Part shown: in pieces, positions 8,342 through 40,199 of the stretch
Position numbering within the stretch: the stretch's first letter is position 1
How the letters are laid out: each line of letters opens with the position of its first letter
Assembly: GCA_030374765.1 (NCBI GenBank)
Contig: JARGXX010000080.1
Span: 1,054,001 to 1,118,000, forward strand
Direction of reading: 5' to 3'
Origin: Agarophyton chilense
Lineage: Eukaryota > Rhodophyta > Florideophyceae > Gracilariales > Gracilariaceae
Length of the DNA stretch: 64,000 nt
Notes under the pieces: model-generated
Told to the model about the DNA's origin: nothing
Databases searched by the model: none
The model's input: only the letters and a program-made list of their open reading frames with translations
Translations under genes and position numbers: made by a program

Positions 8342-8441
8342 TTCGCACCACTCTTAATTGGCGAGTGACTACTGCACGATCAATCTCAGTTTGTTCCTCA
8401 TTTTGCTGGATATAATGAACAAAGAAGCTCTGCTCACGGAG

Positions 8442-18447: not shown

Positions 18448-18450
18448 AAT

Positions 18451-18464
18451 TGGTCTCCCGACTT
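18451..18464 (+). promoter_or_regulatory. Primer binding site of E1
   Basis: TGGTCTCCCGACTT starts 3 bp after the 5' LTR. It begins with the TGG expected opposite a tRNA CCA end. The identical 14-mer follows the 5' LTR of E2 and a 12/14 match follows the G4 LTR, so all three families should use the same tRNA. I could not assign the tRNA species. Confidence 0.88.
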
Positions 18465-18570
18465 AGAAGTCAAGACCGCTTGTGTCCTCTCTGAGGTTGT
18501 TTTCCGTTTAACGGGTTTTCTCCGGTTTCACCGGATTGCTTTCTATTCTTCCGTCGAGACGGTGTGGCCA

Positions 18571-20681
18571 ATGCCAAGGAAACCGCCTAGCATGGAGCGT
18601 CCTGCAACACGCAGACGTTCCCGCCAAAGCGGTGATGCCAGGGGCACTGATGTTTTACAGGCCTTGGCTCCAACACCAGATTCCCGGGAGATACCGGTCA
18701 CCGGCACTGAAGACCCGCAGCCCGATTCCGGGTGAACGACCGTCGCAACGGTGGTTTCTCTGCCTCCGCGGTTGGTCGACCAAGCGCGGATTGTACGCTT
18801 GGAAGAGCAGCTCCGCTCCCTGCGGGCTGCTCACAATACCCTCTCGAGGGAGTTCACCTCTTTACGAGGAAGCCTCGCTAACCCCCCTCCAAGTGAGTTA
18901 GCCGAGGATATCCGCGTATTGCGGTCAGACGTCAATAAACTACTCGAATGTTTTGGCGCTCCGTCTTCCTTCGCAGAAGGTATGGAGAATCGCTTCGAGC
19001 TTCTCCGAAGCCGACTTGAGTCGGTCGAGAGGACGCTAACCTCGCCCGCGAACGCGGCTAGACCGGTTGTCTCTCATCGAGAGACCCAGTCGCGGAACCG
19101 GAAGAGCCGGAAGAACCGGGATTCTAACCGTAAGCACAGACACCCGTCCGACTCATCATCTGAGTCGAACGGTAAACCGAGTGACTCGGAGAGTTCCGAT
19201 TCGTCGGTGAGCGATGACCCACAGGATCGTTATGGGCGCTCTTCCCGCTCAAAGCGGTCCTCTGCCACCTACGGGGCCATCCGGTCGCGCCCCAAGGGTC
19301 GGCGACATCCGGGCCTCAAACCCTTGAAGCCCACCAACCCTCTGTACAGGACACTCCTGTCCTACCGGTATTACCGGCTAGAAGATTCCTCTTTAGGTCG
19401 GACACCGCGTGACATGGTAAAGTGAAAGACTGCATCAAGCGGATGCAGCTTTCACTTCGTAACCAGTCGTTTACTGGGGATGATCCAATTCTGGTCTTGG
19501 ATTTCCTACACCGCTTTGTAGCGAAAGCTGATATACTCGGAATGAACGAAGGACAAGCCTACGTGGCGCTACCCTACTTTCTACGGGGTGTCGCTGAAGA
19601 TCAGTTTTTGTCGGTCCGGGGCTCGTCGCGAGCCTCCGAAGGAGGTGTGACCTGCTGGCCCGAGGCCGTGCAGTACCTCCTGCGTTCCTACGCAACCAAC
19701 TCCGCGATACAAGCGGCGATACTCGCTTTGCGAGACACTCGACAACGCTCCGGCGAGCTCGAGACCGATTACTCGGTACGCCTGAATAAGGCTTTCCACC
19801 GTTGTGGTAATGTATACCCCGCTGGGGAACGCTGTACGATGTTCATTGATGGCTTGGATCCAGCCATCAAGACTCTTGTCGCCCGTTACAGGGAACAAGA
19901 GCCGAAGGTGACCTACCTTGAACTTGTACAGTTTGCCCGCGCAGAGGGAGATGCACTACGTGCACGCAATCCGGTAACCCGGTCGAAGGCCGCTAAAGCA
20001 TTGTCGCTTGAGTCAGACTCTTCTTCACCGTCATTTGCGACGGATGGCATCCCCAAACAGGGTTATGACAATATGAATGTCATCCATCACGAAGGTTTAT
20101 CTATTCTGACAACGGAATTACCGTCTACGACGGATGGCTCGGTTGACTCAACCGCAAGGGACACGGAGAACGGGCAGGTCTTCTATCTAAATGACCGCCG
20201 CACTCCGGCCGCCCGTATGCCGTACTCGAACGGAATGACACGAAGTCAGCGCCCTGGATGGGTTGGAAACCGGGAACCCGGAAGATACACCGATGCTCGG
20301 AATGCCGTACCGCGAAACGCGGGAGTGACGTTGGTGTGCCACTTGTGCTACGAGCGCGGGCACACCTCCCCGCAATGCGTTTTATCGCTACGCGATATGG
20401 CGCGAGTGGTGGATAATTACGAAGCCCTCTCCCCGCAGGAGAAGAGCTCCGTGCCACTCACGTCATATCTCCGCGCGAAGACGGACTTCCCCAACGCATT
20501 GGCTTACACTCCGAATTCTCGGTACAAACCGGCTCAGCCGGCACGCGCCGCACCAGCGCCAAACCACGCTGGTGGATCTCAACCCGCTCCTGCGGTAGCT
20601 ACCGTGCAACGGAATCATGCACTCGTTGCCGAGGAAGTCGGGCCTTCGCCCGACCAGGACCCTGTACAGGGAAAAGAATAG
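18571..20681 (+). pseudogene. E1 gag, interrupted by one stop and one frameshift
   Basis: The ATG at 18571 (MPRKPPSMERP) opens a frame with a TGA at 18733. It continues through a coiled-coil stretch (RIVRLEEQLRSLRAAH, then DIRVLRSDVNKLLECFG), a basic/Ser-rich linker, and ends at 19425. The following frame (from about 19422, VKDCIKRMQLSLRNQ) carries the capsid-like retrotransposon gag domain (FLHRFVAKADILGMNEGQA, LPYFLRGVAEDQF) and a CCHC knuckle CHLCYERGHTSPQC near 20338. In E2 the same junction (PRGTGRVKNCIKR) is uninterrupted, so E1 lost one base near 19420. Gag packages the RNA. This copy would make only fragments unless recoded. Confidence 0.9.
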
Positions 20682-20716
20682 AGGGAGTCTCCCCTTCGGG
20701 AGAGGCGTCCTCAGAG

Positions 20717-23700
20717 TTGAGGCTGACGACGCCCAAGGCGCCGATGCCTCGCTCCCCGGTGAAAAACCTGACAAGGAAGGACACCGCAAACGCGGACTCT
20801 AAACACCTCGGTGTTTTGCGTCGACCGTGGATACGGATTAGAAATAACCGGATCCCGGATAGAGTCTTGGTAATGGCCAAGCGTAACTACAAGGTTTACG
20901 CTGACCTTGGTCTGCACCGGCAGTTTATGGTGAGATGTCTCACTGTCCTGGATACAGGTGCTGGGCCGAACTTTATTGTGGAATCGGTTTTACCCCCGCC
21001 ATTGCGGTCACTCATCCGTTCTGAAACGGTACCCAACGTCTCAGACGCCAATAACAACCCGTTGAAAACATTTGGTGTGATCGACCTGGTCGTCAGGCTA
21101 GGTCGGATGGTGGTTAAACTAACTTTTATTGTGTGCCGCTCGCTGGCCGCGCCAGTTATACTGGGATGTGACTACTGCGACAGGTTTGTCAACGCCATCC
21201 GCCCACGCCTTAAGCAGGTGGAACTTGAGGACGGATCGACCGTCCCCATTGTTCGTCAACCGCTGAAGCGGGCATCGAAGAAACACGTTCCTCTACCTGC
21301 TGCGCAGGAACCCACACCGGCGAACCGGGATTCTACGAAGCTACGCGTTGCCTCGTCAGTCACCATACCCCCGGAGAGCCAGGTTATGATTTCAGTCAAT
21401 TCCCGTCAACACGGTCTTCGGGTTGTTCAGCCCTTGCCCTCGTTGTACGAGAAATTTCAGTTAACCGTTGCGAACGGAATCGTGCAAGTCACGCCGAATT
21501 CCCCTTTCAGGGTGTTGGTTGTCAATCTGGGAAAGGCTCCCCAGACGCTGGCAAGGAACCAAGTCATTGGGTCTGTGACGCCGCACCCGCTCGCGATGCT
21601 CCCTACAAAGGTGACGGCTGCCGAAGTACTCGGAATAACTCCCTCTACCGAGGATGGTCTCCCGGTATCCGGTGCAGAAACCTCCGGGGAGGCACAGCAG
21701 TTGGCGCTCGATAAAACCGCCAAGACGGATGCATTTCCGACCTCTTCGGTTCCCACACCTGACACCAAGGCACAGCCTACGAGCTACGATAAGATAGACC
21801 CGATCAAGGCCCTCGAGGACCTGGACCTGAGTCATGTACCGGTCTCACACCGGGACCGCTTACGCGGAATGCTACGCGAGTTTACCACAATGTGGGAGGG
21901 CTCACTGGGTGAGATCAATACAACCGAACATCGGATAGACTTGCTACTGGACGCACGTCCGGTTGCACAACCCCCTTACAGGGCGGGACCGAAAGCTCGG
22001 GAGGAGGAAGAATTTCAGGTGGACAAGATGCTCCGTGCTGGAGTCATCGAGCCCGCCCAATCTCCTTGGGCTTCACCGGTGGTGCTGGCCCTCAAGGCTG
22101 ATGGCACGTGGCGGTTTTGCGTTGACTACCGCCGCCTCAATGCCGTCACCGTGAGGGACACCTACCCGATTCCGCGCATGGACGAGTGTATAGACTCGCT
22201 CGGGGACGCTACCGTGTTTACGGCTCTGGATGCTAACTGGGGCTACTGGCAAGTCCCAGTCCGGGAAGAGGACCGAGACAAAACCGCGTTTGTTTGCCGT
22301 TCGGGTTCCTACCGCTTCATGCGGATGCCGTTTGGTTTAAGCAATGCACCGGCCACCTTTCAAAGGGCAATAGACATACTGATGTCGCGTTTCAAGTGGC
22401 GCACGTGCCTTGTCTACTTGGACGACATCATTGTCTTTTCCAGAAACCTGGACGATCACCTGACCAACGTGCAGGACGTGATGACCGTACTGCGAGACGC
22501 AGGAATAACCCTCAAGTTGAGGAAGTGCGAGTTCTTCACCGACACGGTGAAGTATCTCGGGCACGTCATCCGTCCAGGACGGTTAATGATCGAACAAGTT
22601 CGTATCAAGTCCCTCTGCGAGGCGAAGGAGCCCCGTACTCAAACGGAGCTCCGATCCTTTTTAGGTCTGGTCAACGTCTATCGACGGTTTATGCCGAGTT
22701 CCTCGGATATCGCCGCTCCGCTAAACGCGCTACTGCGGAAGGGCCAGCCACCAAAGCTTGCGCCATTTACCACCGATCAGTCGGAATCTTTTCGCTCCTT
22801 GATTAAGGCAGTTACGACAGCTCCCATCCTATCCTTGCCCAAACCTGGGCTTCCCTACTCCATCGACACCGACGCCAGCGACCACCAGGTGGGCGGCGCA
22901 CTGTTCCAAACCACCCCCGAGGGGGAATGCAAACCAATTGGCTATTGGTCCCACACGCTGAACGTCCACGAGCGCAACTACTCGGTCTCCGAGAAGGAGT
23001 GCCTCGCAGTGGTCTGGGCGCTATCCACTCTGCGCCCATACCTCATGGGCGTTCATTTCACCATGTACACGGACCATGCCTCGTTGAGGTGGCTGCTGAA
23101 CATCGCAGATCCTTCTGGCCGCTTAATGCGGTGGCGCCTCCGCTTAGCGGAATTCGACTTCGAGGTCGTCTACAAAAAGGGTGTCCAGAACACCCAAGCA
23201 GACGCCCTCTCTCGATTACCTACGACAGGTGAAGCACTTGCCGACCCGGAGGTCGACGAGGTCCCGTACTTTCCCTTGGAAGGGGAAACACCGACGGAGT
23301 CGGATTGGCCCGAAACCGGGGAAAACACCATGGAAATGGATGAGCTACTCGCAGCGCGCGGGAATGAAACACCCGTACCCGGGACCTTTGTACCCATCTC
23401 CACCGAGCAGATGATCCGAGAACAGTTCGGCGACCCGTTCTGCACGCGCATACGGGCCCGCCTAAACGGTGGAGAGGACCTCCCGTTCGAGGTAAACGAC
23501 ATCGGGGACCTCGTCCGGACGGTGGACCACCGATCCCAGATCGTGGTCCCGCACACCCTGCAAACCATGGTGCTCCACCTCTCACACTACCCGGCCCTCG
23601 GGGGACACTCCGGTGGGAGAAAACTTTATCCAACCCTGCGAAGGGACTTTTCTTGGCCCGCTATGGCGGTTGATTGCTACGCTACGGTGCAGTTCTGTAC

Positions 23701-25960
23701 CCAATGCGCAAAGAACCGGGTGAAACTCCGGAAGCACTCCAAACGGATGAAGCTTTTCCCTGCAAGGGCGCCCCTCGTGTTTGTCGCAATCGACATTCTC
23801 GGGCCTCTACTCAAGACGCGCAAGGGAAACAAGTTCCTCTTGGTTATCACTGACCGCTTTTCGAAGCTGGTGCGCACCGTACCTTTACGGAAGATCACCG
23901 CTTTCACGGTTGCGAACGCCTTCGTTACGCACTGGGCGTTCGTTTATGCCCCTCCGATAGAGGTTCTATCCGATAACGGTAAGCAGCTCGCCTCTAAGTT
24001 CTTTCAGGACGTCTGCCGCATCCTCGACGTCAAGAACCTGTTTACTACCACCTACCACCCGCAAACAAACGGGCAGGTGGAACGCTTCAACCGCACCCTA
24101 CTCGCGTCGCTACGCTCCTACGTATCCGATCACCCAATGACATGGGACATTTATTCTGATGCTATCACCTACGCCTACAACACGCAGGTTCACCGGACAA
24201 CCGGTCTGACTCCCTTCGAGCTTGTGCTCTCCAGGACACCCCCGCAAGTGGCGGTCGAACCACAACACAGGGTCACCTCTTTCCCATCCATGGGTCAATA
24301 CCGCCTCAAGTGGAAGAACTGGCTTACCAAGCTCTTACCGGTCGCCCGGAAGTCCATGGAACGTGCCCAGGCCGCCTACAAGGGGTATTTTGATAACCGC
24401 TTACGCAGACCACTACCGGCACCGCCCAAGCCGGGAACCTACATGTTCGTTCGCCGGGAGTACTACAACCCCCGGACCGACAAGCGTCACAAGCTCTCGC
24501 CTGTCGCCAAAGGTCCGTTCCGGGTCGTGTCCTCCCTCCCCGGCACCGTTGTGGTGGACAAGAACGGCGACCACGAACGTCTTTCACAAGACCGCATCGT
24601 AGCCGCCCCACCGCCGCAGGCGGAAAACGCATCAGCCCCCGTCGAAACAGCCTCGGATACCACGGGTACAACGGTGGCACCACGCCCCGCCGTGGTACCG
24701 CACCCCTCACGGGGTCTCTCCGATATACCGACTTTATCGGAACCACCGGCAATGTTGGAAACACCTGGCCCTCGCGGCCAGCTACCCTTACGGGCGCCGC
24801 GCAGCGGTTTTTATACCCGCCATGCAGTTAGCCCACCATCACCCGTCGCTCCGTCTAAGGAGGGGGAGGGGACCCGCTCAATCGCGGAAGCATCGCCGTC
24901 CCAACGGAAGTTTAACCGGACACCCCGGGCAAGGCCCCCGAGCGGGCATCCGGCATCGTCGCCGGACGCCACTCCGCTCCCTCGGGACGCGGCTGTCAAT
25001 CCGACCGCCACGCAACCCCGCAAGGGGAACCAAGGCGCTCGAAGACCCGAAGCCGGGAAGCGAGACCCTACGGACGCTCCGCATCGCGTGGAAGCAACTA
25101 AGGGCTCCCCGCACATTTGTGGTCGCACACCGAGCGTTTCGGTCGATACCGGTACTCCGGCGGGCGCTGCGCAAGCAGGTGTGGCGAGCCCCTCCGTTGA
25201 GAACGGTACGAACCCCATGGGGGAAAAGGGGCGCAACGACAAGTCGAAAACCGCCTCCCTTGCCGAACAATCGGAGCCAACCGTCCGCGACGGCCCGACC
25301 ACCCGTCCTCAAGGTCACGTGACCCGGGCGGGAGATCGTACCAATGGGCACCCGGCATCCCGGTCATTGGCTGACAGCCACCCCGCGGAGGCGGATCGCC
25401 GGGACGGTGAACCACTCACCGCCCACGGCGCACCGCACAGCGGAAACTGCCCACCAATGGAAACGCCGCATGCCGCAAATCAAGCGGAGGCCTCCGGCGA
25501 ACCGTCACCAAGACGGAAGGACCCCCGCAAACTCGCGGTAAGGGCGGACTTCAGGGAAGCCCCTACTGCCCAGCGGAACCACAACCCGGCCGCGCCGGCA
25601 ACTTCCGCGAAGCGGTACGGCAGCCCCGGAAACCCGGCAACAACCCCAGAGCGGAATGACAAACCGGGTGACCCGGAACAGGCGACGACGAGCCCAGCAC
25701 CACGCGGCGCTGAGGCTCGGGTCACCACCACCCGGCAAGGCCGGCAAGTTTACGTGCAGGAGTACGTCCTCGACCGAATCGTCGGACATAGCTACGATGG
25801 GCACGGGGTGCTCCAGTACCGGACCCGCTGATACGGATACGGGCTGGAGTGGGACACTCCGGAGCCCATCGAGCACCTCCCGCGCTCTGCGGTAATGCGA
25901 TACCACCGCCTTGCGGGGACGGCACTCCCAGCCACGCCGGTAAACGCCCAAGAGGGATAA
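20717..25960 (+). pseudogene. E1 pol: protease, reverse transcriptase, RNase H, integrase, chromodomain (one nonsense codon in the chromodomain)
   Basis: The frame is open from about 20717 to a TGA at 25829 (1704 codons). It has no obvious ATG before MAKRNYKVYADLG (20875), so it may be reached from gag by frameshift. Protease is VLDTGAGPNF (about residue 77). RT has VLALKADGTWRFCVDYRRLN and YLDDIIVFS (about 566). RNase H is YSIDTDASDHQVGGALF. The integrase zinc domain runs from HLSHYPALGGHS to FCTQC, with catalytic Asp/Asp/Glu in AIDILGP, LSDNGKQ and NGQVERFN (about 1114). A long Pro/Arg-rich tail follows. The chromodomain (YVLDRIVGHSYDGHGVLQYR) is cut at 25829, where E2 has TGG. The same frame continues to a TAA at 25958 with YGYGLEWDTPEPIEHLPRSA, so only this one stop separates it from a full chromovirus pol. 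Confidence 0.93.
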
Positions 25961-26293
25961 ACCGTGAACACGGAATGGAATGGCTGATGGCGCCACGCGC
26001 CATCTCCGTCCATGCCCCAACGCGGGGAAGGAAGCAACCGCTCACGCTATCCCAACGTCGTTGGTGGTCGTGCCAGTTACCTGGTCCGCGCGCGAAGCGC
26101 CAACCGTTAAACACGGAACTCCCAGCTAGGCTGGTTCCCTGCAACGCGGGAACCCCGGTAGAAGGCCGGTACCCCGGAAAGAAAGAAGCGGACTTGGGAA
26201 AGGGCGTCGGAAAGGCGACCCTCTTCTTTTTATTTCTCACTACTGGCAAGGGCGCCCTGGTGGCGCCGCCCTACATTCTACCGGAAGCTCCGG

Positions 26294-28069
26294 TCATTCC
26301 TCCGCACGAGGTGGACCCCCGCCCAGGCGGTTGGCTAAGGCATCCCGCATGGCGGCCCCATCACCCGAGGTCTCGGAAGGGCGAAGCCCCACCTCCAGAA
26401 GGAAGCGCGTGATGACCTCGCCCCGCTCCGCGCCAGCAGCAGTTGCGGGCGGGCCCGCCACCGATGGAGTCGGATAGGGATCCGTTCGCACGGCATCAGC
26501 AGCCCCGGATGGAGCCGCACCACCGTATTCAATGGACTCCTCACCGGCCTCGCCGGACTAGTCACCCTCCATCGGAGCGTAACCGGGATCCTCCGGTTCG
26601 TTGTCGACCATAGGGTCACCATCCACATAGTCGCGGTAATAGTCGCTCGAGTCGACATACCCTCGCGGGTGGTCGGCCGGGACTTCACGCGGCGCATGCC
26701 GGTTGGCTTCCCCTTCCTCGCGGCTGATCTCGTGGTACTCCCAGGGGTTGAAGTAGACGAAATCCCCCGCTAGCGCGGTATTCCTCCTGAATCCGGGGCC
26801 AGACCCGCGACGCGGTTGAATGCGTTGGGAGTTCTCCAGCGGGACCTCATCCCACTGGACCCCCTCCACAAAGTCGAGGAGGCCCAGCATCTCTTCTTCG
26901 TTCGCCTCGCCCCCGAGGGGGATGCGCATGTCCATACGGCGGATCGCAGCCCGCACACGCGGTGGCACGTACCACAATCGGCATTGGTCGTACGCCTCAG
27001 CGAGGATAAAAGCCGCAGTGCAGACGGCCCATTCGCTTACCACGACGGACCACCACCCCGACTGGGGATCGTTCAAGAACGACGACCCTACATAGGTGAA
27101 GACTGGGGGCAGCTCAATGAAGCAACCCCAGCACGTCTCCAAGGAGGACCACCAGTCTGGGAGACTGACGTACCGACCACGTCGGTGAGCAGGCGCGATG
27201 CGCTCAATCTCCGTGTTCTGGTACGGTACGAAATACCCGGTCCGGGCCCGCCAACGCCGCTCATCGCGGATGATGTTCTGAAGGAAGTTCGAGCGCGACT
27301 GCCGCGGTGGGTAGCGGATCTCTGCCCGAAGAATCGGTCGTACCCAGCAAAGGGCTTCTTGCCGAGCGATCGGTGTGCCCCTCCAAGCGAGGGTTTCCAA
27401 TCCGTTAAGACGGTCACAGTACGACATTTCCCCGCGAGTGCGGTAAATGTGGACGTCGAACTCGACATCTGGCGGTATCGGGAACTCGAAAGGCGCCCGA
27501 TGGTGCCTGAGATAAGCGATCCGCACAAGCGCGGCCTGAGCCTCCGCAGAGGATTCACTGCGTCGGCGGAGTATGTGGTGTACCGGGATGGCGATACTAT
27601 TACGCCAATCCCAGGACATGGTCACCACCCCGGGCAGGTCGCCCGGGAGCATCTCCGAATTATCGGTGTAGGATTGGATCAAATCCTCGTCGCGGGCAGC
27701 CAATGGGTGAAACCAAGGCGCATACCGCAACATCGCGGAGCCATGCCGAGTTCTCGGATTTGCACCTACAAGGGCGTCGTAGGTCGGCCACTGCGGTGGG
27801 TCTGCCTGTCCGCGAAAGCGGGCGCCAATACGGCGGTCTTCGTACGCGAGGTTGGTAACATCCCCAGGGCGGGGCGCGGACCGGAAGCTGGTGGAACCAC
27901 CAAGGGCGGGATTCGCAGATGTGTTATGACGGTCGGGGTTGGACATGGTGCGTGTTGGTGGGCTGTGGTTGGAATTGGATGCGAAGAGCTGGCGTGGGAT
28001 CCTTGGTGAAGGTGTGTTGGTTTCCGGAGACCCGGTGTCGGACGTGCTCTTATCATGACGAGCTGCCAT
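26294..28069 (-). CDS. E1 antisense accessory ORF (about 591 codons, one internal TAG), unknown function
   Basis: Lies between pol and the 3' LTR on the strand opposite to gag-pol. The ATG at 28069 (MAARHDKSTSDTG) starts 48 bp inside the 3' LTR edge. The frame reads to a TAG at 26558-26560, then continues with no further stop to a TGA at 26294. The extension ends GEVITRFLLEVGLRPSETSG and GAAMRDALANRLGGG, which E2 also encodes, so the TAG is probably a mutation. The N-terminus is low-complexity Ser/Pro/Asn. The core is Trp-rich: WPTYDALVGANPR, APWFHPLAARDEDL, LPDWWSSLETCWGCFIELPP, AGDFVYFNPWEYHEI. No signal peptide, membrane segment or enzyme motif is seen. By eye over half of core residues match the E2 protein. 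I do not recognise the family. Confidence 0.8.
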
Positions 28070-28103
28070 GCCGACTTCCTCTTCGAGGTGTTCGCCCTGT
28101 CTT

Positions 28104-28114
28104 AAGGGGGGGGA
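28104..28114 (+). promoter_or_regulatory. Polypurine tract of E1
   Basis: AAGGGGGGGGA lies two bases before the 3' LTR, the usual place for plus-strand priming. Confidence 0.85.
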
Positions 28115-28116
28115 TA

Positions 28117-28980
28117 TGAAGAGCAACGTCCTCCAGGGAGGTTTTTGGGGACTTCAGTTTTTTCCGGAGCCTCCGGCGTGCAACCTCGTTATGAGTAGGA
28201 GTAATCCGTTTTCACGGCGATAGCCGGAACGCCGGTGATGCACCGGCGGGACCGGGTGCCGTACACGTGGCCGCAGCGCCCGTGCGACACGTGGCCGCCA
28301 GATGGGCCCCTTTGTTAGACGGACATTTAGCTATTTAGGATAGACTTTATTTATTCTATTCTACGGTGACTACAGTACGTAGGCCGCCGGCCTCGCGGCC
28401 GCCGGTCCAGTAAAGTCTCCCCAACAAGGGTGATCTTGGTCTTCCAGATCTTGGCTCTGGGTCGAACCGCCTGCGCGGATATACAACTTTTTACCGAGAG
28501 ATTTCCCGTGGTGCACGGCTTCCCAACCCCCTTGGACGTTCAAGCAGCCTTCGTGTGTTGGGTACCTATTCCCACTTTCGTGGTTCCACCCGTGTATACG
28601 GTTTGCTACACCAGGCAGTGCCGGCTATTCCCGAGTCCCCTCTTGCGACTCGTGGTCAACCTCGCCCTCTTGCCTCCGTTCCCATTTTCCTTCCCTTTTC
28701 CTCCCCTTCATTGGGCAACTCCCGCTCTTGCGGCTTGCACTGACACCTGTCGTGCTCGCCACTCTCGTGGGTTTTGCCTCTTCAGAGGATACGCAAGCAC
28801 CGCTTCGGCGGATATTCTCGGCTTCTTTCAGCCTCCCTGCGCCCGTCGCGACGGTTCGGCTCCGGCTTACACCCGGCATTGCGCGCCGATCCCTGGGAGG
28901 GCTCTACCGCGCCGGTTACCTCGTGAGAGGAAGATCCGGACGTCTTCGTAGGTTTTCCCCCTTGGGGGCATTGTCCTACA
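28117..28980 (+). repeat. 3' LTR of E1
   Basis: 864 bp, same ends as the 5' LTR, with a few dozen scattered substitutions and no length difference. Confidence 0.95.
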
Positions 28981-28985
28981 AGGTG

Positions 28986-29073
28986 TAAGGCCATTACTCC
29001 CCACCGAGGGTGAACAGTGCAACTGTAAAAAGTTGATTGGACGTAGGTACGAGACAGCTCGTGAAGTGGTTGG
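28986..29073 (-). mobile_element. G4-family LTR fragment, right part (continues the piece at 17461-17583)
   Basis: After the duplicated AGGTG, the sequence TAAGGCCATTACTCCCC through CTCGTGAAGTGGTTGG matches the reverse complement of 62945-63040. It directly continues the G4 LTR that was broken at 17583. It stops abruptly at 29073, where the E2 LTR begins; the remaining roughly 480 bp of the LTR are not found on the far side of E2. Confidence 0.85.
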
Positions 29074-29961
29074 TGTAGGACAACGCTTGGAGCGGAGACA
29101 CCACGAAGATGTTCGGGATCTTCCTCTCTTGAGAGACACGCCTCAGGCGGAGGAGACGCGTACCAGCGGAGCACAGAAACAGAGCCACTCTGGAAAGGCA
29201 AGACGGAGTCGGGTGTAAGACCGAGGCCAATCCGGCGGGATATACCTAGAGTGTTTAGGTGAGCACGGCACAGTCCGGGGTGTGACCAATCCTATGCGGA
29301 GCGGTATCACGGCGATTCTCGGAAAAGGAGCGAGGAAACACTCGTATGAGGTGGACGAGCGAGGTGAGTGGTGCGGCCGCTCACGAGATCCAAAAACGAG
29401 AACAAGCGGAAAACGGGGGCGAAACCCTATACAAGGGCGAGACTACGACAAGTGTCGGCGATTGAATATGAACCCACGGTGGTGGTAGCACTCTGGTCGA
29501 CAGAGCGGTGGATGAACTAACGTGCAACGAGCGCTCACGCAGTATGCGGTGAAGACGCGCCGAAGGCGAAGAGTTCAGAGCCATGACTCCCTGCTTGGTA
29601 TCTCCCAAGACGGTCTTTACTGGGGAGCAGTGCTCAACCTCCTAAGTAGTGTGGCGCGCGGCCCCTGATAGTGGGCACGCGCCCGAAAAATAGACACTAA
29701 ATAGCGATAGCGTAGCCAAATAAATACTAAAAATTACTAAATAATACTAACCATTAGGTAGAATCCGGGCCACGTGTGGCACGGCTTGTACTCGAGCGTT
29801 GGCATCCGTGCAGTCCACGTGTTCCACCAGTGTGCACTTCCGGTCCTAACCGGGCGTCAGCACGCAATAGTGGTATAGCTTGCCATAGCCCAAGCTGTTC
29901 CTCAAGCGAGCGCAACTTCTAAGTCCTGCGAAGAAACCCCCCTGAAGGGCATTGTCCTTCA
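29074..29961 (-). repeat. 3' LTR of E2
   Basis: 888 bp, almost identical to the LTR at 39314-40199 apart from scattered substitutions and small indels. It abuts the G4 LTR fragment on its left. Confidence 0.93.
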
Positions 29962-29963
29962 TA

Positions 29964-29974
29964 TCCCCCTCCTT
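29964..29974 (-). promoter_or_regulatory. Polypurine tract of E2
   Basis: On the minus strand AAGGAGGGGGA lies just before the 3' LTR, equivalent in place and composition to the E1 tract. Confidence 0.8.
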
Positions 29975-30200
29975 AGGTGACGAACACGCCGTCGACATGG
30001 CGGGGAGGCAACGGTCCAACCGGCATAAGAGCGAGCCGCGTAACGCGCCCAGCGATCACTCGACTGTCTAAGGCGGAGCTGCATCAACGAACGACAAACG
30101 CAACAACGCGGTAACCACTCCTCGAACTTCGAGCGCTCTTCCACAACGTACGCCAACTTCCAGCGACCACATCCCGATACCTCGGCGACCAGCACTCCCG

Positions 30201-31865
30201 ATGAACGGTGGTAACAATCCCCGCCGGGGTTACTTCTCCGGTTTTCATTCGGCTCCCCTTCCGCGGGGGAGTGCCTCCCCAACCGCGCCGAGCCGGTCCC
30301 GGGGTCCCGTTGAAGCTTCAAGCCACATCACTTCTGCGGAGGACATCTGGCCCAGTTACGACGAACTCGTCGGGTTAAACCCGCGTCAACATGCGGCGGT
30401 TCTCCGGAGAGCTCCGTGGTTCCATCCGACAGCGGTCCTCGACGAAGAACTCGTGGCCGCGTATGCTGATGGCAATGCGCGTCTCCCGGGCGAGCTGCCG
30501 GGTTTGATCACCAATTCGTGGGACTGGCGACGCCGTGTGGCGGTTCCCGTTCACGCGATTCTGCGGCGAAGGCGCGAGTCGGCGGAAGAGGCGCATTGTA
30601 CCTTCGTCCGCATCGGCTATTCACGGATCAACCGGGCAAACTTTCAATACCACATCCCCGACGAATTCGGCTTCGACCTACGGATGTACCGGACTCAAGG
30701 TGAGATCGGCTAATGTGACCGCCTTGCGGCGTTGGAAACTTACACAGGGCGCGGTCAACCGCCAGCGCGTCAAGAAGCGATCTGCTGGGTCCGTCCGATA
30801 CTTCGTGCCGAGTTCCGTCACCTTCGTCGTGAGTCTTGATATCCGTGGTTACAGAACTTCATCCGCGAGGAGCGTCGGGGCAGATCCCGCTTTGGGTTCC
30901 TTGTCCCTTATCAGAACACGGAGATAAACCGGATTTGTCCCTTCTACCAGATCGGGCGATACGTTCCCCTGCCTGGGTGGTGGTCCTCCGTCGAGGTGTG
31001 CCGGGGATGTTACGTGGAGTTGCCTCCCGTCGTCTCCTATCTGGGCTCGTACCTCATCGAGGATCCGCACTCCGGCTTATGGTCCGTGGTCCTAACCGAA
31101 TGGGCAGTCCGCGCCGCGGCGTACATCTTGTGGGAAGCCTACGACCAGTATCGACTGTGGTATCTTCCTCCGCATTTGCGTGGTTACATCCGGCAGCTGG
31201 ACCTTCAACTCCCTCTTCGAGGTGTCAATAACGCTGATGAAGCTCAGGAGCTCATCGACATCATTGGGCGTGTCGACTGGGCTGTCGTGCCTGTCCGGCA
31301 GAGCGGCCGTGGTCAAGAAGCCCGTGGGGCTGATCGGTCTCCGGGGCGTCGCACGCCGTTGGCGGGAGATTTCATCTTCTTTAACCCATGGGAGCAGCAA
31401 GAGATCTCCGAGGAGGAGGCGTCGGCACTCCGGATGGCTCCGCGAGGCATACCATACGGGCACCCCGTGGGGTTTGTCAACTCGGATGACTTCTACTACG
31501 CCTATGGCGGTGATGATCTCCCGGAGAAGGCGGGCGAATACCGTGGCGACAAGGACATGGAAGACGTAGGAGACCCCGATGGTGCCGATACTACGGCGCG
31601 GCCGGCGCAGGGAGCGACTCACGCAAGTGCGGTGGTCGATCCAGTGGGGGCGGCGCCGCCGGACGAACCGGAAGTTATCGAGGTTCCCATACGCCCAGAG
31701 GCGGTCGTGATCTCCCAGTTCCTTCGGGGTGTTGGACTGAACGCGCAAGCGGCGAGCGGCGACATCGGTGCGATGAGAGACGCCCTCGCGGCACGCCTGG
31801 CCGGTGGGAGTAACCCCTCTAGCGATTCGGGTGGCGCGCACGGCAATCCGGGTTCTTCCAACTAA
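30201..31865 (+). pseudogene. E2 antisense accessory ORF (about 555 codons, two internal stops), homologue of the E1 antisense protein
   Basis: Transcribed opposite to E2 gag-pol and convergent with pol (pol ends at 32078). The ATG at 30201 (MNGGNNPRRGYFSG) opens one frame to a TAA at 31863. It has only two stops, TAA at 30711 (E1 has a Tyr codon here) and TGA at 30837; the same frame resumes with no shift. Matching blocks with the E1 protein in the same order are IWPSYDELVGLNPR, APWFHPTAVLDEELVAAY, SWDWRRRVAVPVHAILRRRR, ICWVRPILRAEFR, LVPYQNTEINRI, LPGWWSSVEVCRGCYVELPP, EAYDQYRLWYLPPHLR and AGDFIFFNPWEQQEISEEEA. The conserved tail is VVISQFLRGVGLNAQAASG. The C-terminal third is acidic and repetitive. 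Function unknown; the agreement with E1 shows this frame was translated in the ancestor. Confidence 0.85.
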
Positions 31866-32077
31866 TCCCTTGTGATCTTGGTTAGTATGTCCCGCTGTGC
31901 GGTAGTGTGTGCAGCAACTTCGAAAAGGGTAAAGTACTTCCGTCTATGACGTATTTGTTTTCTTTCTTCTCTTCCACTTCTTCTGAGTGTCCTTCTCCAG
32001 GTTTTCTGTGCATCTTCTCCTTCTTTCAAGGGCCCTTATCCAGATCTTCTGTTCCTTTATCCCCATCGGGTGTCTTC

Positions 32078-35000
32078 TTATCCCAATTGGGCTCGGTCTA
32101 TGATAGCCGGCAAAGCCGTGACAGTACGACGATGATACTGTACCACCTTTGACCGAGGTAGGTGCTGTATCGGTTCGTCTGAATCCCATTCGGGGCGGTA
32201 CCCGTACCAACGGACCAAGTATTGGATATAACCCTTTGGGTGGTAGGAGTGCTTAAAAATGCGTCCGACCACGAACTCTTGTCGGTACACTTCCCGGCCA
32301 TCCCGTATGACGCTGTCGCTATTTACGGGTGGTACCCGTCCTGAGCCAGGGCGTACCGAAGTGATCAAGCGTTGGGCGGCTTCGCTCTGGTCGGACCGTG
32401 TAGCGCGCAAGGCAGTCCTCGGGTGAGTAGAATGTCGACCCGAGTTCGGCGGTTCATTTTCTCCAAGTGCCGGACTTGTTTCAGCGCTTCCCACTCCGGT
32501 TGGAGGGCCCACACCAGCGGGTAACCCGGGTGGTCGTTCCACTAATCGGCGTGGCGAAGCTCGCTTCGGCGGTGAGATTCGCTGGGGCGGTGGCGCATTG
32601 TCGCGCCTCTCTGTCCCACGGCGAGATTCCGTGTAGTCACGTGAGCGTTCCAATGGCTGGCTGTCCGGCGTCGGCGCCGTGGATGTATCCGCCTCCCTGT
32701 GCGGGGTACTTGGCGGTGCGTCGTCCACTCGTACTGTATCAGGCTGCGGTGCGTCAAGCGCATTTGCATTCCGTGTTGCACGTGTGGTGACACGTCGGCG
32801 AGTGTTGGTGGCGTTATCCGCAGGTGCGTTCTGAGGTTTGGATAGCGACAGCGTCGAGTCGTGCAGGACGTCGGTATAAGGCACCCCTGATGGGCGAAGA
32901 ATGACACGCGACGGTGCGGCGTTTCCAGCGACGGTATCGACCGGATTACGACGGCTGTCGGGCGCCTCCTTCTCCTTAGACGATGCACCGGAGTTGGCGT
33001 CCGTCGGGTGGACTGGAGAGGAGCGACGAATGCGCGACACGATTTCTTTCGGGTTGTGCGCCGCGGGTAGCGGAAGGTCAGACAAACCTCGAGATGGGTG
33101 TGGTAACGCGTAGGGACGCGGGTGGACCTGGGGTAAGGGGGTCGATGAATCCGTATCAACGGGAGCAGTCACACCAGTAGGTTGGGATGTTAACGGCGGA
33201 GGAGCCGATACCACGCGATCGCGGGAGATGCGTTCGTGATTACCAGCGAGGTCAACCACGACAGTGTCGGGAGCCACCGAAATAACCCGAAAGGGGCCGT
33301 CGGCAACGGGTGACAGCTTGTGGCGTTTCTCCTTCTCTGGGTTCCAATACTCCTTGCGGATGAATACATAACCGTCGGGGGCGAGACGTGGCGGCGAGCG
33401 AGGGGCTTTGGTATCAAAGTCACGCTTGTAAGCGGCCTGGGCTCGGCCCCTTGAACGCCGTGCGGCGGGAACGAGCTTCGTGAGCCAAGTTTTCCACGCT
33501 TCCCGGTAAGCAGTCGGTGACGGAAAGGTATCCAGCGTGGGCTGTGGTTCCAGCGCCACGGGCGGTGGGGTACGGGACAATACCAGCTCGAAGGGCGTTA
33601 GTCCAGTTGTCCTGTGCACCTGCGTATTGTACGCAAAGGTGAGCGCATCAGTGAAAAAGTCTCAATCTTTCGGGTGGTCTGCAACGTATGAACGGAGTGT
33701 CGCAAGTAATGTCCGGTTGAACCGTTCGGCCTGCCCATTAGTTTGGGGGTGGCAAGTGGTCGTGAACAGGTTCTTAATGTCCAAAATGCGACAAACTTCC
33801 TCGAAGAAACGAGAGGCGAACTGTCTCCCGCTATCGGAGAGGAGGTTGACCGGTGGGCCGTAGACGAAGACCCAGTGTAGGACGAAGGCTTGAGCCACGC
33901 TCATAGCGGAGATCTTCCGTAACGGTACGGTCCGGACATGCTTGGAGAAGCGATCCGTAATTACGAGTAAGAACTTGTAATTCCGCTTAGTGGTAAGGAA
34001 GGAACCAATTATATCGATGGCCACAAACTCCAATGGAGCGCGAGCTGGAAACAGCTTCAACTTCGTCGCATGATGGCGGAGTTTGACACGGTTCCGAGCG
34101 CAATCGGTACAAAACCGCACCGTTGCGTAGCAGTCCACTGCCATTTCAGGCCAGTAGAAGTTACGGCGTAGGGTGAGGTAGAGTTTCCGTCACCCGACGT
34201 GGCCATTCAGTTTGGAGTAGTGCGACAACCGCAATACTCTCGACTGGAGGTTATGTGGTACCACGATTTGCGGGTGCGATCCAACGGTCCGTACAAGGTA
34301 TCCGGCGTCATTCACCTGAAAGGGGAGAGTACCTCCTCCATTCAGTTGAGCGCGGACCTTCGCGCAGAACGGGTCAGCGTATTGCTCCCGTATCATCTCC
34401 TCTGGAGTAATAGGCACGAAGTTCCCTGGTAGGGGTTTCTCGGAATCTTCCGAGAGAAGAAAGTCGTCCAATTCGGAACCGGAATCTGAAGAGTCCGTGT
34501 CTCGTTCCTCGTCCTCGATGGTAGCGTCGTCGCCATTCACTGCAAAGCAGGGTATTTCATCGTCTTTGACGGGTAGTGCTTCGCCAGTAGTGACCAGGTG
34601 GGAGAGAGCATCGGATTGGGTGTTGCACGATCTTTTTCGGTACTGCACGTCAAATTCAAATTCCGCTAGACGGAGACGCCAACGCATCAAACAGCCTGAA
34701 GGCTCCGAGATGGAGAGTAGCCATCGAAGTGATGCGTGGTCCGTAAAAACGGTGAAATGATTACCCATGAGATAGGGGCGCAACTTTTGTAATGCCCACA
34801 CTACTGGAAGGCATTCCTTCTCCGAGACGGAGTAATTTTTCTCGTGGACGTTTAGCGATCGAGACCAGTACCCTACGGGGCGTCTTTCCCCATTGGGTGC
34901 AGTTTGAAACAGTGCACAACCTACTTGGTAGTCGCTGGCGTCCGTATCTACGGTGAAGGGCCTTCCAGGCTTGGGCAACGAGAGGATCGGGGCGGAGACG

Positions 35001-36970
35001 ACAGAATCCTTAAGAGAGTTGAAAGATTCCGTTTGAACGGGGGTTAAGGGGTCCAGTTTTGGTGATTGGCCTTTCCGCAAAAGCGCGTTTAACGGGGCAG
35101 CCTTGTCCGCAAAGTGCGGGATGAATCGTCGGTAGACGTTTGCGAGTCCCAGAATGGAACGAAGCTCGGTTTGCGTCCGCGGTTCTTTAGCCTCCTTGAG
35201 TGACATAACACGAGTCTCCTCGATTGAAACACGTCCTGGACGGATGACGTGGCCGAGATACTTCATGGTGTCCGTGAAGAAGTCACATTTCTTCAACTTA
35301 AGAGTGACACCCGCATCTCGTAGCGTGGTCATGATATCCCTCACATGAGTGAGATGTTTGTCCAGATTATCTGAGAAGACGATTATGTCATCCAGGTAGA
35401 CCAGGCAGGTACGCCATTTGAAGCGGGCCAATAGGATGTCGATGGCTCGCTGGAAAGTAGCGGGGGCGTTGGTAAGACCAAAAGGCATCCGTTTGAAACG
35501 GTAGAGACCGGAGTGACACGCGAAAGCGGTTTTATCCTGGTCTTGCTTCCTTACCGGAACTTTCCAGTATCTCCAATTGGCGTCCAGGGTTGTAAAGACG
35601 GTGGCGGTGCCCAGCGAGTCAATGTACTCGTCCATTCTTGGGATTGGATACACGTCCTTGACGGTAACGGCATTCAACCGACGGTAGTCGACGCAAACCC
35701 TCCAGGAACCATCCTGCTTTGGAGCCAGTACTACTGGAGAACCCCACGGCGACTGAGCCGGTTCAATGACTCCTGCTCAAAGCATTTTATCCACTTGTGC
35801 CTTTTCCTCCGCGCGTGCGGCGGGTCCGGCACGGTATGGGTGCTGAGAGATGGGTCGGGTGTCCGGTAGCAAATCAATCCGGTGTTCCGTAGTGGCAATC
35901 TCACCAAGGGAGCCGTCCCACATAGTGGTGAAGTCCCTCAACAGTTCTCGCAATCGATGGCGGTATGACTCCGGGCCGTGGCTGAGATCCAGGGCCTCGA
36001 GTTCTTGGACTGGATCGGGGCGGTCACCACTCGTTGAAACGGGCTGCGTCCCTGATGTTACAGGTTGAACCCCGGGTACCAGTGATGAAACGGGTTCCGG
36101 GCTTTCCCCCTCCTTAGAGTGAACGAGTCCGAGAACGTCAACTGCGGTCAGCTTTGTCGGCACCATAGCGATGGGGTGCGGCATGACGGACCCTATCACT
36201 TGGTTCTTCACCAGATACTGGGGTACAATGCCTAGATTGGCGATCAGCACGTGAAACGGTTGGTTTGGCTCCACATGGATGATTCCACTCGCAATTGCGA
36301 GGCTGTGCCTGTCATACAGTGACGACAATGGTTGCAAGACCCAGAGGCCATGTTGACGGGAGGTTACTTTCACCATCATTTGGGACTCAGGTGGGACGCA
36401 CAACGACGCTGCGACTCGGAGCTTATTAGATTCACGGTTATCCGGTCCAGGTTTCTGTGCTGCCGGTAGCGGGACATGCTTCTTCGTGGCACGCTTAAGC
36501 GGACGACGAACGATCGGAGTGGACGATCCATCCTCCATCTCGACACGCCGTTGGCGGGGGAAGATCGCTTCGACGAAGCGGTCGCAAAAGTCGCAGCCCA
36601 AGATGACTGGGGCGGCTAATTTCCGACATACGACGAAGTCGAGTTTCACCACGCGAGCGCCAACGCGGACTACCAGTTCTATGAACCCCACCGTATCCAA
36701 CGGTTTGTTGTTCGCGTCATCGACCTCCGGGACGTGGTCGCGGCTGATTCTATACTGCAATGCAGGCGGTAACACTTCCTCCACGACAAAGTTCGGACCG
36801 GTACCGGTGTCTAAGACGGTAAGGTGTCGCACCGTAAACTGGGGTGAAAGGCCAAGGTCGGCATAGACCTTGTAGTTTCTCTTGGCCATCACCAGAAATC
36901 TATCTGGGAACCGGTTATGGGAAACAAGTTTCCACGGACGACGCAGAACACTAAAGTGTTCCGGGTTCAC
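32078..36970 (-). pseudogene. E2 pol: protease, RT, RNase H, integrase, intact chromodomain, with three nonsense codons
   Basis: A single minus-strand frame from about 36970 to a TAG at 32078, broken only by TGA at 35777, 34190 and 33662. The sense codons at those sites in E1 are Arg, Gly and Trp. Protease is VLDTGTGPNF. RT is RVCVDYRRLNAVTV, then YLDDIIVFS. RNase H is FTVDTDASDYQVGCALFQ. Integrase shows AIDIIGSF, LSDSGRQFASRFF and NGQAERFNRTLL. The C-terminal chromodomain is uninterrupted (FVVGRIFKHSYHPKGYIQYL, then RWYGYRPEWDSDEPIQHLPR). Chromodomains steer integration toward modified chromatin in chromoviruses. E2 keeps the chromodomain that E1 has lost but is otherwise more damaged in pol. 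Confidence 0.93.
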
Positions 36971-37086
36971 GTCATTGTCGGCCTCTTTCCTTGAAAGGAT
37001 TTTGACCGGGGAGCGAGGCTTGGACGCCTCGGGCGCCGTCGACCTCGACTCTCAGGGCGCCCCTCCTTGAGAGGAGACTGCCACAT

Positions 37087-39037
37087 TTAGTTTTTCTGGG
37101 CCTGCTCCGCCGGAGGCGGCTGCCCAGGACGTTGAGCAGGCAACGCCGGGGCATCAGGTCCGGAAGGTTCCGCAGAAGCGGTGGGGTGACCGACCACGTC
37201 GGTGACACGGGATTCCGGTGCAGTTACGACCCGAGCTCGGGGAAGCGACACGTGACGTGGAACATCCGTTCGAGTACGGATATACGATGAAATCGGAACA
37301 GCTGCTTTGTCCTCCGGGGATAGGGCCTCGTAATTGACTACGACTTGTGCCCATTCTCGGAGAGACAACACACATTGTGGAGAAGTATGGCCTGGTTTGT
37401 AGCAGAGATGACAAATCAGACCAGAAGCCGGCGTTGGGTGGCGAGGCTCGGCGAACTTAACCGCGGGGCGGGTATCTCTCCAACCAGGATGCAAAAAGCG
37501 GACCCTACCACTCTCGTGTGTGACGCGTGGCGCACGGACGCGACCATTATCCGTATAGAGTAGCGTGTCATCCTCAATCACGTATTGTGATTCGTCCAAG
37601 GTTGAGGGTAACTCCTTTGTCGGGATGGAATGAACGTCGCTAAGGGCTAGCTGCCCGTTATCATAATCCCTTCGAGAGGCCTGTTCGTCGATCATCGAAG
37701 CTGACGGGGTACCAGGTTGTAACATCAACGCTTTTGCCGACCTAAGCCTGGATCCAGGAGTGCGTGGGCGCAGGGCTTCACCTTCTGCGCGGGCGAACTG
37801 CTCTAGTTCCAAATACGTGGCTTTAGGTCTATCTTCTCGACGTCGAGCAACAAGAGTCCGGATCGCCGCGTCCAAACCATCGACAAACATGGTACAACGC
37901 TCTTGGGCGGGGTAAAAATTGCCACAGCGGTAAAAGGCCTTGTTAAGGCGCGACGAATAATCAGTTTCCGACTCGCCTGGACGTTGGCGAGTGTCCCGCA
38001 GGGCGCGTATCGCCTGCTGAATGGCGGAGTTAGTAGCATACTACCTCAGGAGGTACTGAACTGCTTCGGGCCAGCAGGTTACCCCTCCTTCGGACGCGCG
38101 TGATGTGCCTCTGACAGAGTGATACTGGTCTTCTGCAAGCCCACGTAAGAAGTACGGTAAGGCAATGTAGGCCTGTCCCTCGTTCATTCCAAGGATGTCA
38201 GCTTCCGCGACAAATCGTGCCAAGAAATCCAACACTAATATTGGGTCTTCTCGAGTAAACAACTGGTTGCGAAGTGGGAGCTGAATTCGTTTAATGCAGT
38301 TCTTCACTCTTCCCGTACCACGGGGTGCACGATCCAAAGAGGAGTCCTCCAAATGGTAGTACCGGTATGATAAGAGCTTCTCAAAGAGCGAATTGGTCGG
38401 CTTCAGCTCCTTCAAACCTGTGTGCTTTCTTCCCTTCGTGCGGGCGTGGATCAAACCATGGGTGGCTGTTGACCGTTTAGAGCGTGAGGAACGCTCACGG
38501 CGAGCTAGTTCCACCGATGAATCGGAAGAGTCGGACTTCGAAGATGAGGAGTCTGACGGTTCGGGATCCGTGTTCCTTCGCTTCTTTCGATCCTGGCGGT
38601 TCTCTTCCTTACTTCCCTTGTGGGGGTACTGCAACCGGCTCGGCCGGATCATCCCCTGACATTAGGGTTTGTTCCAACGTCTCGAGACGGCTTCGGACGC
38701 GCGAGAACTTGTCCGCGACGCCCTTGAAAAAGGCCGAGGGTCCACCAAGGAATTCCAGAATCGAGTTCACATCCGCACGGAGGACACGGAGGTCCTCAGA
38801 AAAATCCTGCGTAGCAGTGTTGTTTACCTTCTTGCGAAGGGAATCGAACTCCTCTGCAAGGATGACTTGAGCTTCCCGCATAGAGCAGAGTTGCTCTTCC
38901 ACAGCTGCAAGGCTGGGATGGGGGGTGACATCCCTAGCAGGGGAGAGCATCTGGGCGGCGGCAGACGCCGGTCCTGCTCCACTTGCTGGGGGTGTCGAAT
39001 CAGAGACAGGAGGTCTCGAGGTCCTTCCACCTGGCAC
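37087..39037 (-). pseudogene. E2 gag, with one frameshift and one stop
   Basis: The first part (39037-38609) has a Pro/Ala-rich N-terminus and a coiled-coil stretch (LAAVEEQLCSMREAQVILAE, DLRVLRADVNSILEFLGG). A frameshift near 38630 leads into a second frame running to a TAA at 37087. It contains a Ser/Asp-rich linker, the gag capsid-like domain (FLARFVAEADILGMNEGQAY), a TAG at 38041 where E1 has Ser, and a CCHC knuckle CHLCYKPGHTSPQC near 37400. The start codon is uncertain: the first codon of the long frame is GTG. Domain order matches E1 gag. Confidence 0.9.
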
Positions 39038-39296
39038 GCGAGTCGATCCACCGGTATGAGACCGTGAACAGACCGAAATACGGGATGGTTGCGAGGGTTC
39101 CGGTGCACCGGTTTGACTCCGCGTCCTCGGACGGTCTTTGGACGATATGAGATCAGAATCCGTTACACGTGAGTATCCAAACCCGATCGGCTAGTGGGGC
39201 CGAGAAACTTCCTCAAAGAGAGCAACTGAGATCAATCTCAATTTGTGAGTCCTCTTTCCGATTAATCGTGACTGAGTGTGCCCGACTCAAACTTCG

Positions 39297-39310
39297 AAGT
39301 CGGGAGACCA
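39297..39310 (-). promoter_or_regulatory. Primer binding site of E2
   Basis: On the minus strand TGGTCTCCCGACTT begins 3 bp inside the 5' LTR end, identical to the E1 primer site. Confidence 0.88.
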
Positions 39311-39313
39311 GTT

Positions 39314-40199
39314 TGTAGGACAACGCTTGGAGCGGAGACACCACGAAGATGTTCGGGATCTTCCTCTCTTGAGAGACACGCCTCAGGCGGAGGAGACGCG
39401 TCCCAGCAGAGCACAGAAACAGAGCCACTCTGGAAAGGCAAGACGGAGTCGGGTGTAAGACCGAGGCCAATCCGGCGGGATATACCTAGAGTGTTTAGGT
39501 GAGCACGGCACAGTCCGGGGTGTGACCAATCCTATGCGGAGAGGTACTACGGCGATTGTCGGAAAAGGAGCGAGGAAACACTCGTATGAGGTAGACGAGC
39601 GAGGTGAGTGATGCGGCCACTCACGAGAGCCAAAAAGGAGAACAAGAGGAAAACGGGGGCGAAACCCTATACAGAGGCGAGACTACGACAAGTGCCGGTG
39701 ATTAAATATGAACCCACGGTGGTGGTAGCACTCTGGTCGACAGAGGGGTGGATGAACTAACGTGCAACGGGCGCTCACGCAGTATGCGGTGAAGACGCGC
39801 CGAAGGCGAAAAGTTCAGAGCCAAGACTCCCTCCTTGGTCTCCCAAGAGGGTCTTTACTGGGGAGCAGTGCTCAACCTCCTAAGTAGTGTGGCGCGCGGC
39901 CCCTGACAGTGGGCACGCGCCCAAAAAATAGACACTAAATAGCGATAGCGTAGCCAAATAAATACTAAAAATTACTAAATAATACTAACCATTAGGTAGA
40001 ATCCGGGCCACGTGTGGCACGCCTCGTACTCGAGCGTTGGCATCCTTGCAGTCCACGTGTTCAACCCGTGTGCACTTTCGGTCCTAGCCGGCCGTCAGCA
40101 CGCAATAGCGGTATAGCTTGTCATAGCCCAAGCTAGTCCTCAAGGGAGCGAACTTCCTAAGTCCGGCGAAGAAACCCCCTTGAAGGGTATTGTCCTACA
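39314..40199 (-). repeat. 5' LTR of E2
   Basis: 886 bp with TG...CA ends in sense orientation; pairs with the LTR at 29074-29961. Confidence 0.93.

Follow-up and report, generated by a model that had tools for sequence, protein, structure and literature searches.

Two related gypsy-type long terminal repeat (LTR) retrotransposons, E1 and E2, lie tail to tail with ~93 bases between them at positions 17584-40199 of a 64,000-nucleotide (nt) stretch of the red alga Agarophyton chilense (contig JARGXX010000080.1 of assembly GCA_030374765.1, positions 1,054,001 to 1,118,000; hereafter the window). A first-pass annotation, made from the letters alone, had noticed in each of them a long reading frame between pol and the 3' LTR, on the strand opposite to gag-pol. 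Both frames are confirmed here and their predicted proteins are homologous, the open pieces in the window aligning with 95/189 (E 5e-60) and 80/170 (E 3e-46) identical residues (Table 1). Its placement and orientation in E1, E2 and a third family, E3, its occurrence in at least five divergent families, and selection on the protein between families mark the frame as an authentic third gene carried by a group of gypsy-type LTR retrotransposons in gracilarioid red algae.

Table 1. Features of E1, E2 and the remainder of the window (window positions; nt, nucleotides; aa, amino acids).
Feature	Position	Strand	Remarks
E1, gypsy-type LTR element	17584..28980	+	LTR ends placed by eye
E1 LTRs	~17584-18447 and 28117-28980		96.6% identical (BLAST alignment)
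E1 pol, 1704 aa	20717..25831	+	Reverse transcriptase, RNase H and integrase (domain matches)
E1 convergent gap, pol end to antisense stop	25832..26293		462 nt
E1 antisense gene	26294..28069	-	TAG stop at 26560; 503-aa open piece 26561-28069; collinear on to 26294
E1 polypurine tract	28101..28116	+	Antisense ATG (28069) 31 nt inside
Two CACGTG boxes, U3 of E1 3' LTR	28264..28293		Putative bidirectional promoter region
E2, gypsy-type LTR element	29074..40199	-	LTR ends placed by eye
E2 LTRs	3' ~29074-29961, 5' ~39314-40199		94.9% identical
Two CACGTG boxes, U3 of E2 3' LTR	29771..29821		Putative promoter role
E2 polypurine tract	29962..29977	-	Antisense ATG (29997) 19 nt inside
E2 antisense gene	29997..31865	+	ATG 29997; stops at 30069, 30711, 30837
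E2 convergent gap, pol end to antisense stop	31866-32077		212 nt
E2 pol, three open pieces	32078..36970	-	Reverse transcriptase/RNase H in 34193-35677; sub-cut-off chromodomain match in 32081-33619
Copia-type gag fragment	214-1743	-	Retrotran_gag_2
Helitron remains	6794-9974	-	PIF1-like helicase and Helitron_like_N pieces
Likely host gene, ERGIC/thioredoxin protein	13700-15055	+	
Likely host gene, APC4 subunit	54799-56907	-	

Both copies in the window are interrupted. The single stop reported for E1 is present, as are the two reported for E2 within 30201-31865, but the full E2 frame holds three. The E2 start had been placed at 30201, which unbroken copies elsewhere in the genome do not bear out: the true ATG lies ~200 nt upstream and was missed because of the extra stop at 30069. 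The E1 start was read correctly, the same ATG opening the frame in most fetched E1 loci (L007 lacks it). The estimate that more than half of the core residues are identical agrees with a comparison of an unbroken E1 copy with an unbroken E2 copy from the same genome (198/349, 57%); outside the core this pair shares 24/80 residues in the N-terminal arm and 53/142 in the tail. Opposite the E1 antisense gene lies a 397-aa sense-strand frame (26816-28009, +) that looks like a by-product, every sense-strand frame carrying stops in the copies compared.

Copies were sought in the 79.76-Mb assembly (135 contigs). Place counts include only the best-scoring candidates, chosen by similarity, with the lists of the families left unmerged, and are thus lower bounds; places without a stop were tallied from these lists over the matched stretch only. 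The antisense gene was found in at least five families (E1-E5) within this one genome, at between at least 33 and at least 135 scored places each. E1 accounts for at least 85 places, all at 91% identity or higher (57 without a stop), and E2, queried with a 289-aa piece, for at least 135 at 75% identity or higher (58 without a stop). Three further families were reached through related proteins: E3 via P0007 (at least 68 places, 21 without a stop), E4 via P0005 (at least 77, 54 without a stop) and E5 via P0014 (at least 33 at 71% identity or higher, one without a stop). Unbroken frames of ~560-650 aa exist in four of the five families, and in E1 the frame is open from the ATG to the family end point in 23 of 30 fetched loci, a count that overstates the intactness of the average copy, the fetched loci being the best protein matches.

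The search for further copies in the same place, which the first-pass annotation had proposed, was favorable for E1, E2 and E3. The C-terminus of pol lies on the strand opposite to the antisense frame in 69 of 70 loci (30/30 E1, 29/30 E2 and 10/10 E3), with one further E1 alignment in which the two share a strand, and the U3 region of the 3' LTR lies upstream of the antisense gene in 30/30 E1 and 27/30 E2 loci. These loci were chosen through the antisense protein and establish constant placement, not presence in every copy of pol; neighbors were seen on both sides in E1 and E2, on the pol side and the polypurine-tract side in E3, and on the polypurine-tract side only in E4. In one E3 locus the plus strand carries frames for protease, reverse transcriptase and integrase, identified by visual inspection and through their similarity to E1 pol, and the antisense frame follows at 445027-446856 on the minus strand.

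Selection at the protein level, which the first-pass annotation had suggested, is borne out between families. Among unbroken copies, whose proteins are 31-49% identical between families, the ratio of non-synonymous to synonymous substitution rates (dN/dS) is 0.23-0.28 for E1-E2 (48-49% identical), 0.35-0.36 for E1-E3 (31-32% identical) and 0.17-0.31 for E2-E3 (33-35% identical), ratios that are rough because dS, at 1.8-4.5, is near saturation. When one unbroken copy each of E1, E2 and E3 is aligned and read in six frames, only the antisense frame is free of stops, the others having 2-21 per sequence; the ratio of non-synonymous to synonymous differences (pN/pS) exceeds 1 in four of these five, and the fifth (0.65-0.73, 12-21 stops) mirrors the codon positions of the antisense frame. 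The E1-E2 differences number 220, 201 and 370 at codon positions 1, 2 and 3 (577 codons, chi-square p 7.6e-15), and codons with a single change comprise 143 synonymous and 64 non-synonymous cases against 54.9 and 152.1 expected without constraint. With one unbroken copy per family, all six pairs of E1-E4 have most of their differences at codon position 3 together with a synonymous excess. Because divergence between the families peaks at third codon positions and the antisense frame alone lacks stops, the protein was under selection. The frame could otherwise be a chance opening or an artifact of GC-rich sequence, as might be argued from the long spurious frame on the other strand, too (26816-28009, +); this explanation, which we hold to be wholly improbable, is refuted by the codon-position signal, by the absence of stops from this same frame in unbroken copies of E1-E4 whose proteins are 32-49% identical, and by homologous proteins predicted in three genera.

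The position of the start codon bears on how the gene might be expressed. Read along the antisense strand, the end of U3 is followed by the polypurine tract in complement, then by a leader that is very short, and the ATG. The leader measures 31 nt in 25/26 E1, 19 nt in 19/21 E2 and 8 nt in 5/7 E3 loci, after loci without a pattern-recognized tract were dropped (4/30, 9/30 and 3/10, respectively), and 63 nt, counted by eye, in a single E4 locus. Since a leader of 8-63 nt provides hardly any room for a promoter between the tract and the gene, the transcript start should lie in the LTR, and this geometry indicates U3 of the 3' LTR as the very probable starting point of the antisense message. The antisense activity of the 3' LTR that the first-pass annotation had considered is strengthened accordingly, the short leader making the LTR the natural source of the message. 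In 24/26 E1, 21/21 E2 and 7/7 E3 loci the 330 nt upstream of the tract contain at least one CACGTG box, against 31 occurrences of this motif in the whole window. The start codon set against the polypurine tract leads to a direct prediction, namely that U3 is a bidirectional promoter that fires both ways; if so, the same LTR would make the genome-length RNA in one direction and a protein message in the other.

The predicted protein opens with an N-terminal arm of low complexity; a core of ~320 residues follows that contains many arginines and 10-15 tryptophans, and the tail is acidic, with a charge of -6 to -22. In the predicted model the core is mostly helical and the C-terminus forms a small helix-loop-helix (pLDDT, the predicted local distance difference test score, ~60). 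Among nine sequences 32 columns are invariant, of which 10 are arginine and none histidine or cysteine, a composition that suggests binding rather than metal-dependent catalysis. The most hydrophobic 19-residue stretch scores 0.91-1.45 in seven of seven sequences, none of which has an apparent transmembrane segment by hydropathy. The last point bears on an envelope-like or movement protein, a role that the location of env genes, likewise between pol and the 3' LTR, makes conceivable but that is very improbable in light of the opposite strand, the lack of an apparent transmembrane segment in the seven sequences and the lack of a viral fold match at E<=0.001.

The first-pass annotation recognized no known family in the protein, and nothing over cut-off was found in Pfam, NCBIfam or PHROGs, nor was any fold matched. 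Searches of Pfam (with 10 and then 22 proteins), NCBIfam and PHROGs returned scattered sub-cut-off matches only, including E3_binding in 2/22 members (best E 0.029). The PDB gave one weak match by sequence (E 0.41) and none by profile. Models of 8 sequences (mean pLDDT 50.1) and of 22 sequences (mean pLDDT 60.8) were built; Foldseek found no match against the PDB and none against viral structures at E<=0.001, and VIA-align none, with these low-confidence models, and the missing fold matches mean little because model confidence is low. None of the 22 members matched Transposase_28 (PF04195) at E<=0.1, nor did a match to any other Pfam family exceed its cut-off; PF04195 was likewise absent from the whole genome, but 14 control genomes were equally silent, so this search is uninformative. 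A scan for short motifs yielded nothing useful. An origin of the protein from gag or pol was considered and rejected, no profile similarity being detected to the E1 gag frame or to the C-terminus of E1 pol.

Comparison with the other genes of the elements places the rate of divergence in context. In the E1-E2 comparison dN/dS is 0.07 for the reverse transcriptase piece of pol (70% identical), 0.13 for the piece preceding it (65%) and 0.23 for the C-terminal piece of integrase (45%); three gag pieces have identities of 45%, 60% and 85%. The antisense protein thus evolves at about the pace of the integrase tail and of the fastest gag piece. Such divergence (48-49% identity for the antisense protein against 45% for both of those pieces) would suit a real protein that works at the level of the particle or its assembly, outside the nucleus, as a second structural or packaging protein or as a chaperone of genomic RNA, and so would the mostly helical core and the lack of an enzyme-family match over cut-off. 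A separate antisense message would uncouple the dose of such a protein from that of gag, and the profile comparison with the E1 gag frame revealed no similarity; we regard a particle role as a serious rival, if an unlikely one. Equally serious, and judged slightly more doubtful, is a suppressor of small-RNA or chromatin silencing encoded on an antisense message able to pair with genomic RNA as double-stranded RNA. The same convergent layout in E1, E2 and E3, the families in which pol was seen, would be in keeping with a suppressor, as would the arginine-rich invariant positions of the nine sequences and the fast divergence relative to reverse transcriptase, against which stands the absence of any match over cut-off to a described family.

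Relatives were sought in protein searches in each of which only ~8,000 candidates were scored, and 19 related proteins in all were found among the candidates. They include P0001, P0005, P0008 and P0018 from Gracilariopsis chorda, P0003 from Gracilaria domingensis and P0009, P0010 and P0012-P0016 from Agarophyton chilense, the others being P0002, P0004, P0006, P0007, P0011, P0017 and P0019; residues 1-406 of P0014 are 100% identical to G000:C25:465587-466804. Predicted homologues thus occur in three genera, and public records name them just 'hypothetical protein' or 'unnamed protein product'. A 22-row tree without P0008 and P0013 places G. chorda proteins together with E1, next to E4 (94/91 support, unstarred) and inside the clade of E3 and E5. 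Given this spread over several positions, several of the families were probably already present before these genera diverged, with horizontal transfer as a possible alternative. No relatives were found in scans of viral and prokaryotic contigs. Derivation from a captured host gene, one of the origins raised in the first-pass annotation, is unsupported, no relative outside the family having emerged from the candidates scored.

The arrangement itself is already known, while the protein family appears to be new. Additional open reading frames (ORFs) in antisense between pol and the 3' LTR, termed aORF-3R, are described from plant and fungal LTR elements as having no known function, with maize Grande gene23, rice RIRE2, Silene Retand ORF4, bean PvRetro13 and Botrytis Boty as examples (PMC7264820). 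Grande gene23 is reported there to be transcribed in antisense from its own upstream promoter and to give a nuclear product (PMC7264820). The red-algal gene has the same place and the same reversed orientation as the aORF-3R described (PMC7264820). It differs from them in lacking a PF04195 match in 22 members, in its host, a red alga, and in an ATG that abuts the polypurine tract, such that the promoter should lie in the LTR itself.

HBZ, the antisense gene of human T-cell leukemia virus (HTLV), is driven from the 3' LTR. The red-algal gene would resemble it in having an antisense promoter in the 3' LTR and a message convergent with the genome, and is unlike it in that no viral sequence or fold similarity was found and that the gene does not overlap the pol frame. 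An antisense promoter in the HTLV 3' LTR is also noted in the aORF-3R source (PMC7264820). In the mussel Steamer-like element MchSLE-1 both strands are transcribed and the 3' LTR has been proposed as the antisense promoter, with an antisense ORF of 67 aa (PMC10974842), compared with ~560-650 aa in the red-algal gene. LTR elements of bdelloid rotifers carry lineage-specific ORF3 genes beside gag and pol, several of which are described with esterase, exonuclease or env domains and which are reported to be typically expressed from spliced messages (PMC5408684); the red-algal gene, in contrast, has no recognizable domain and lies on the opposite strand. In the open-access literature we found no published description of this gene, its protein family, its host group or a start adjacent to the polypurine tract.

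Taken together, these observations lead us to favor, tentatively and with less than full conviction, a U3-driven, soluble, nucleic-acid-binding accessory protein that acts in the cycle of the element itself, with the nucleus as the most likely place. RNA polymerase II would transcribe the antisense gene from a promoter in U3 of the 3' LTR, as the position of the ATG suggests, and the resulting message would be distinct from the genomic RNA, whose 3' part it would complement. With less certainty, the product would be a soluble protein, neither an envelope nor a known enzyme, and would act as a nucleic-acid-binding accessory factor in transcription, RNA handling or chromatin, for which the nucleus is the most likely site. 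The function is a guess from the residue composition and from the analogy with Grande gene23. A more far-reaching and rather doubtful proposal is that of a self-encoded antisense gene of undescribed fold, predating the Gracilariopsis-Agarophyton split, whose bidirectional U3 with conserved CACGTG boxes and whose protein, regulating or protecting the genome-length RNA, would constitute an independent HBZ-like circuit in non-retroviral elements.

Several observations weigh against the favored explanation. The transcript, the promoter and the localization are predictions, and the nucleic-acid role was read from residue make-up and a weak Ish1 match at the C-terminus, seen in 2/10 pieces with a best E of 0.0034 and 18.1 bits against a cut-off of 26.6; a profile of the C-terminus found nothing below E 0.33 in the PDB, and an Ish1-like (HeH/Ish1-type) C-terminus is treated as a lead only. 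A 22-row alignment, several rows of which are fragments, has no invariant column, and arginine occupies only one of its nine nearly invariant columns; the core, with a net charge of -1 to +6, is not strongly basic; even the better model is of low confidence and gives no fold match; and no CACGTG box was seen in the ~150 nt of upstream sequence read for E4. The near-saturation of dS between families noted above also belongs here. Lastly, the dN/dS comparison envisaged in the first-pass annotation is favorable between families but within them gives medians of just 0.55 (E1, after three of 435 pairs with zero synonymous differences were dropped) and 0.62 (E2), which amounts to weak constraint. 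Within E1, changes found in at least three copies are no more constrained than single ones (0.66, 41 changes, versus 0.65), and within E2 they are (0.57, 76 changes, versus 1.02), in counts that are biased, the copies having been chosen by protein similarity.

Weak constraint within families would be expected if the antisense RNA itself mattered, by regulating copy number, while the function of the protein were minor or lost, and antisense regulatory RNAs are known from other retroelements (PMC7264820). Against this reading, which we find quite improbable, stand the excess of third-position and synonymous changes shown by every one of the six pairs among E1-E4 and the sole stop-free frame of six in unbroken E1, E2 and E3 copies. 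The accessory protein that we favor would add to a known class of genes: antisense genes at this place are known from flowering plants and fungi, and the present, apparently unrelated case comes with protein selection between families, hundreds of scored places and several divergent families in one small genome. The red-algal families thereby form a clean comparative set for asking what such antisense genes do.

Further features of the two elements were recorded. At the flanks of E1, 4/5 bases are common and may represent a target-site duplication, and none was seen at the flanks of E2. The chromodomain match of E2 reaches 22.9 bits, below the Pfam cut-off of 25.1, and none was found in E1 at E<=0.1 (Pfam), while a 35-residue BLAST stretch near the chromodomain region of E2 aligns E1 with E2; the designation of the elements as chromodomain-type in the first-pass annotation is therefore weak. 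Directly inside the 5' LTR of both elements (18448-18475 and 39270-39313) lies TGGTCTCCCGACTT, likely the primer binding site, which in E2 is followed by an inverted copy (CCCGACT...AGTCGGG). Elsewhere in the genome, three E1-type antisense genes (L009-L011, G000:C68:3138181-3158083) recur at an exact spacing of 9197 bases and two others (L025 and L026, C77:295889-306646) lie 9249 bases apart, as if the elements stood in tandem arrays.

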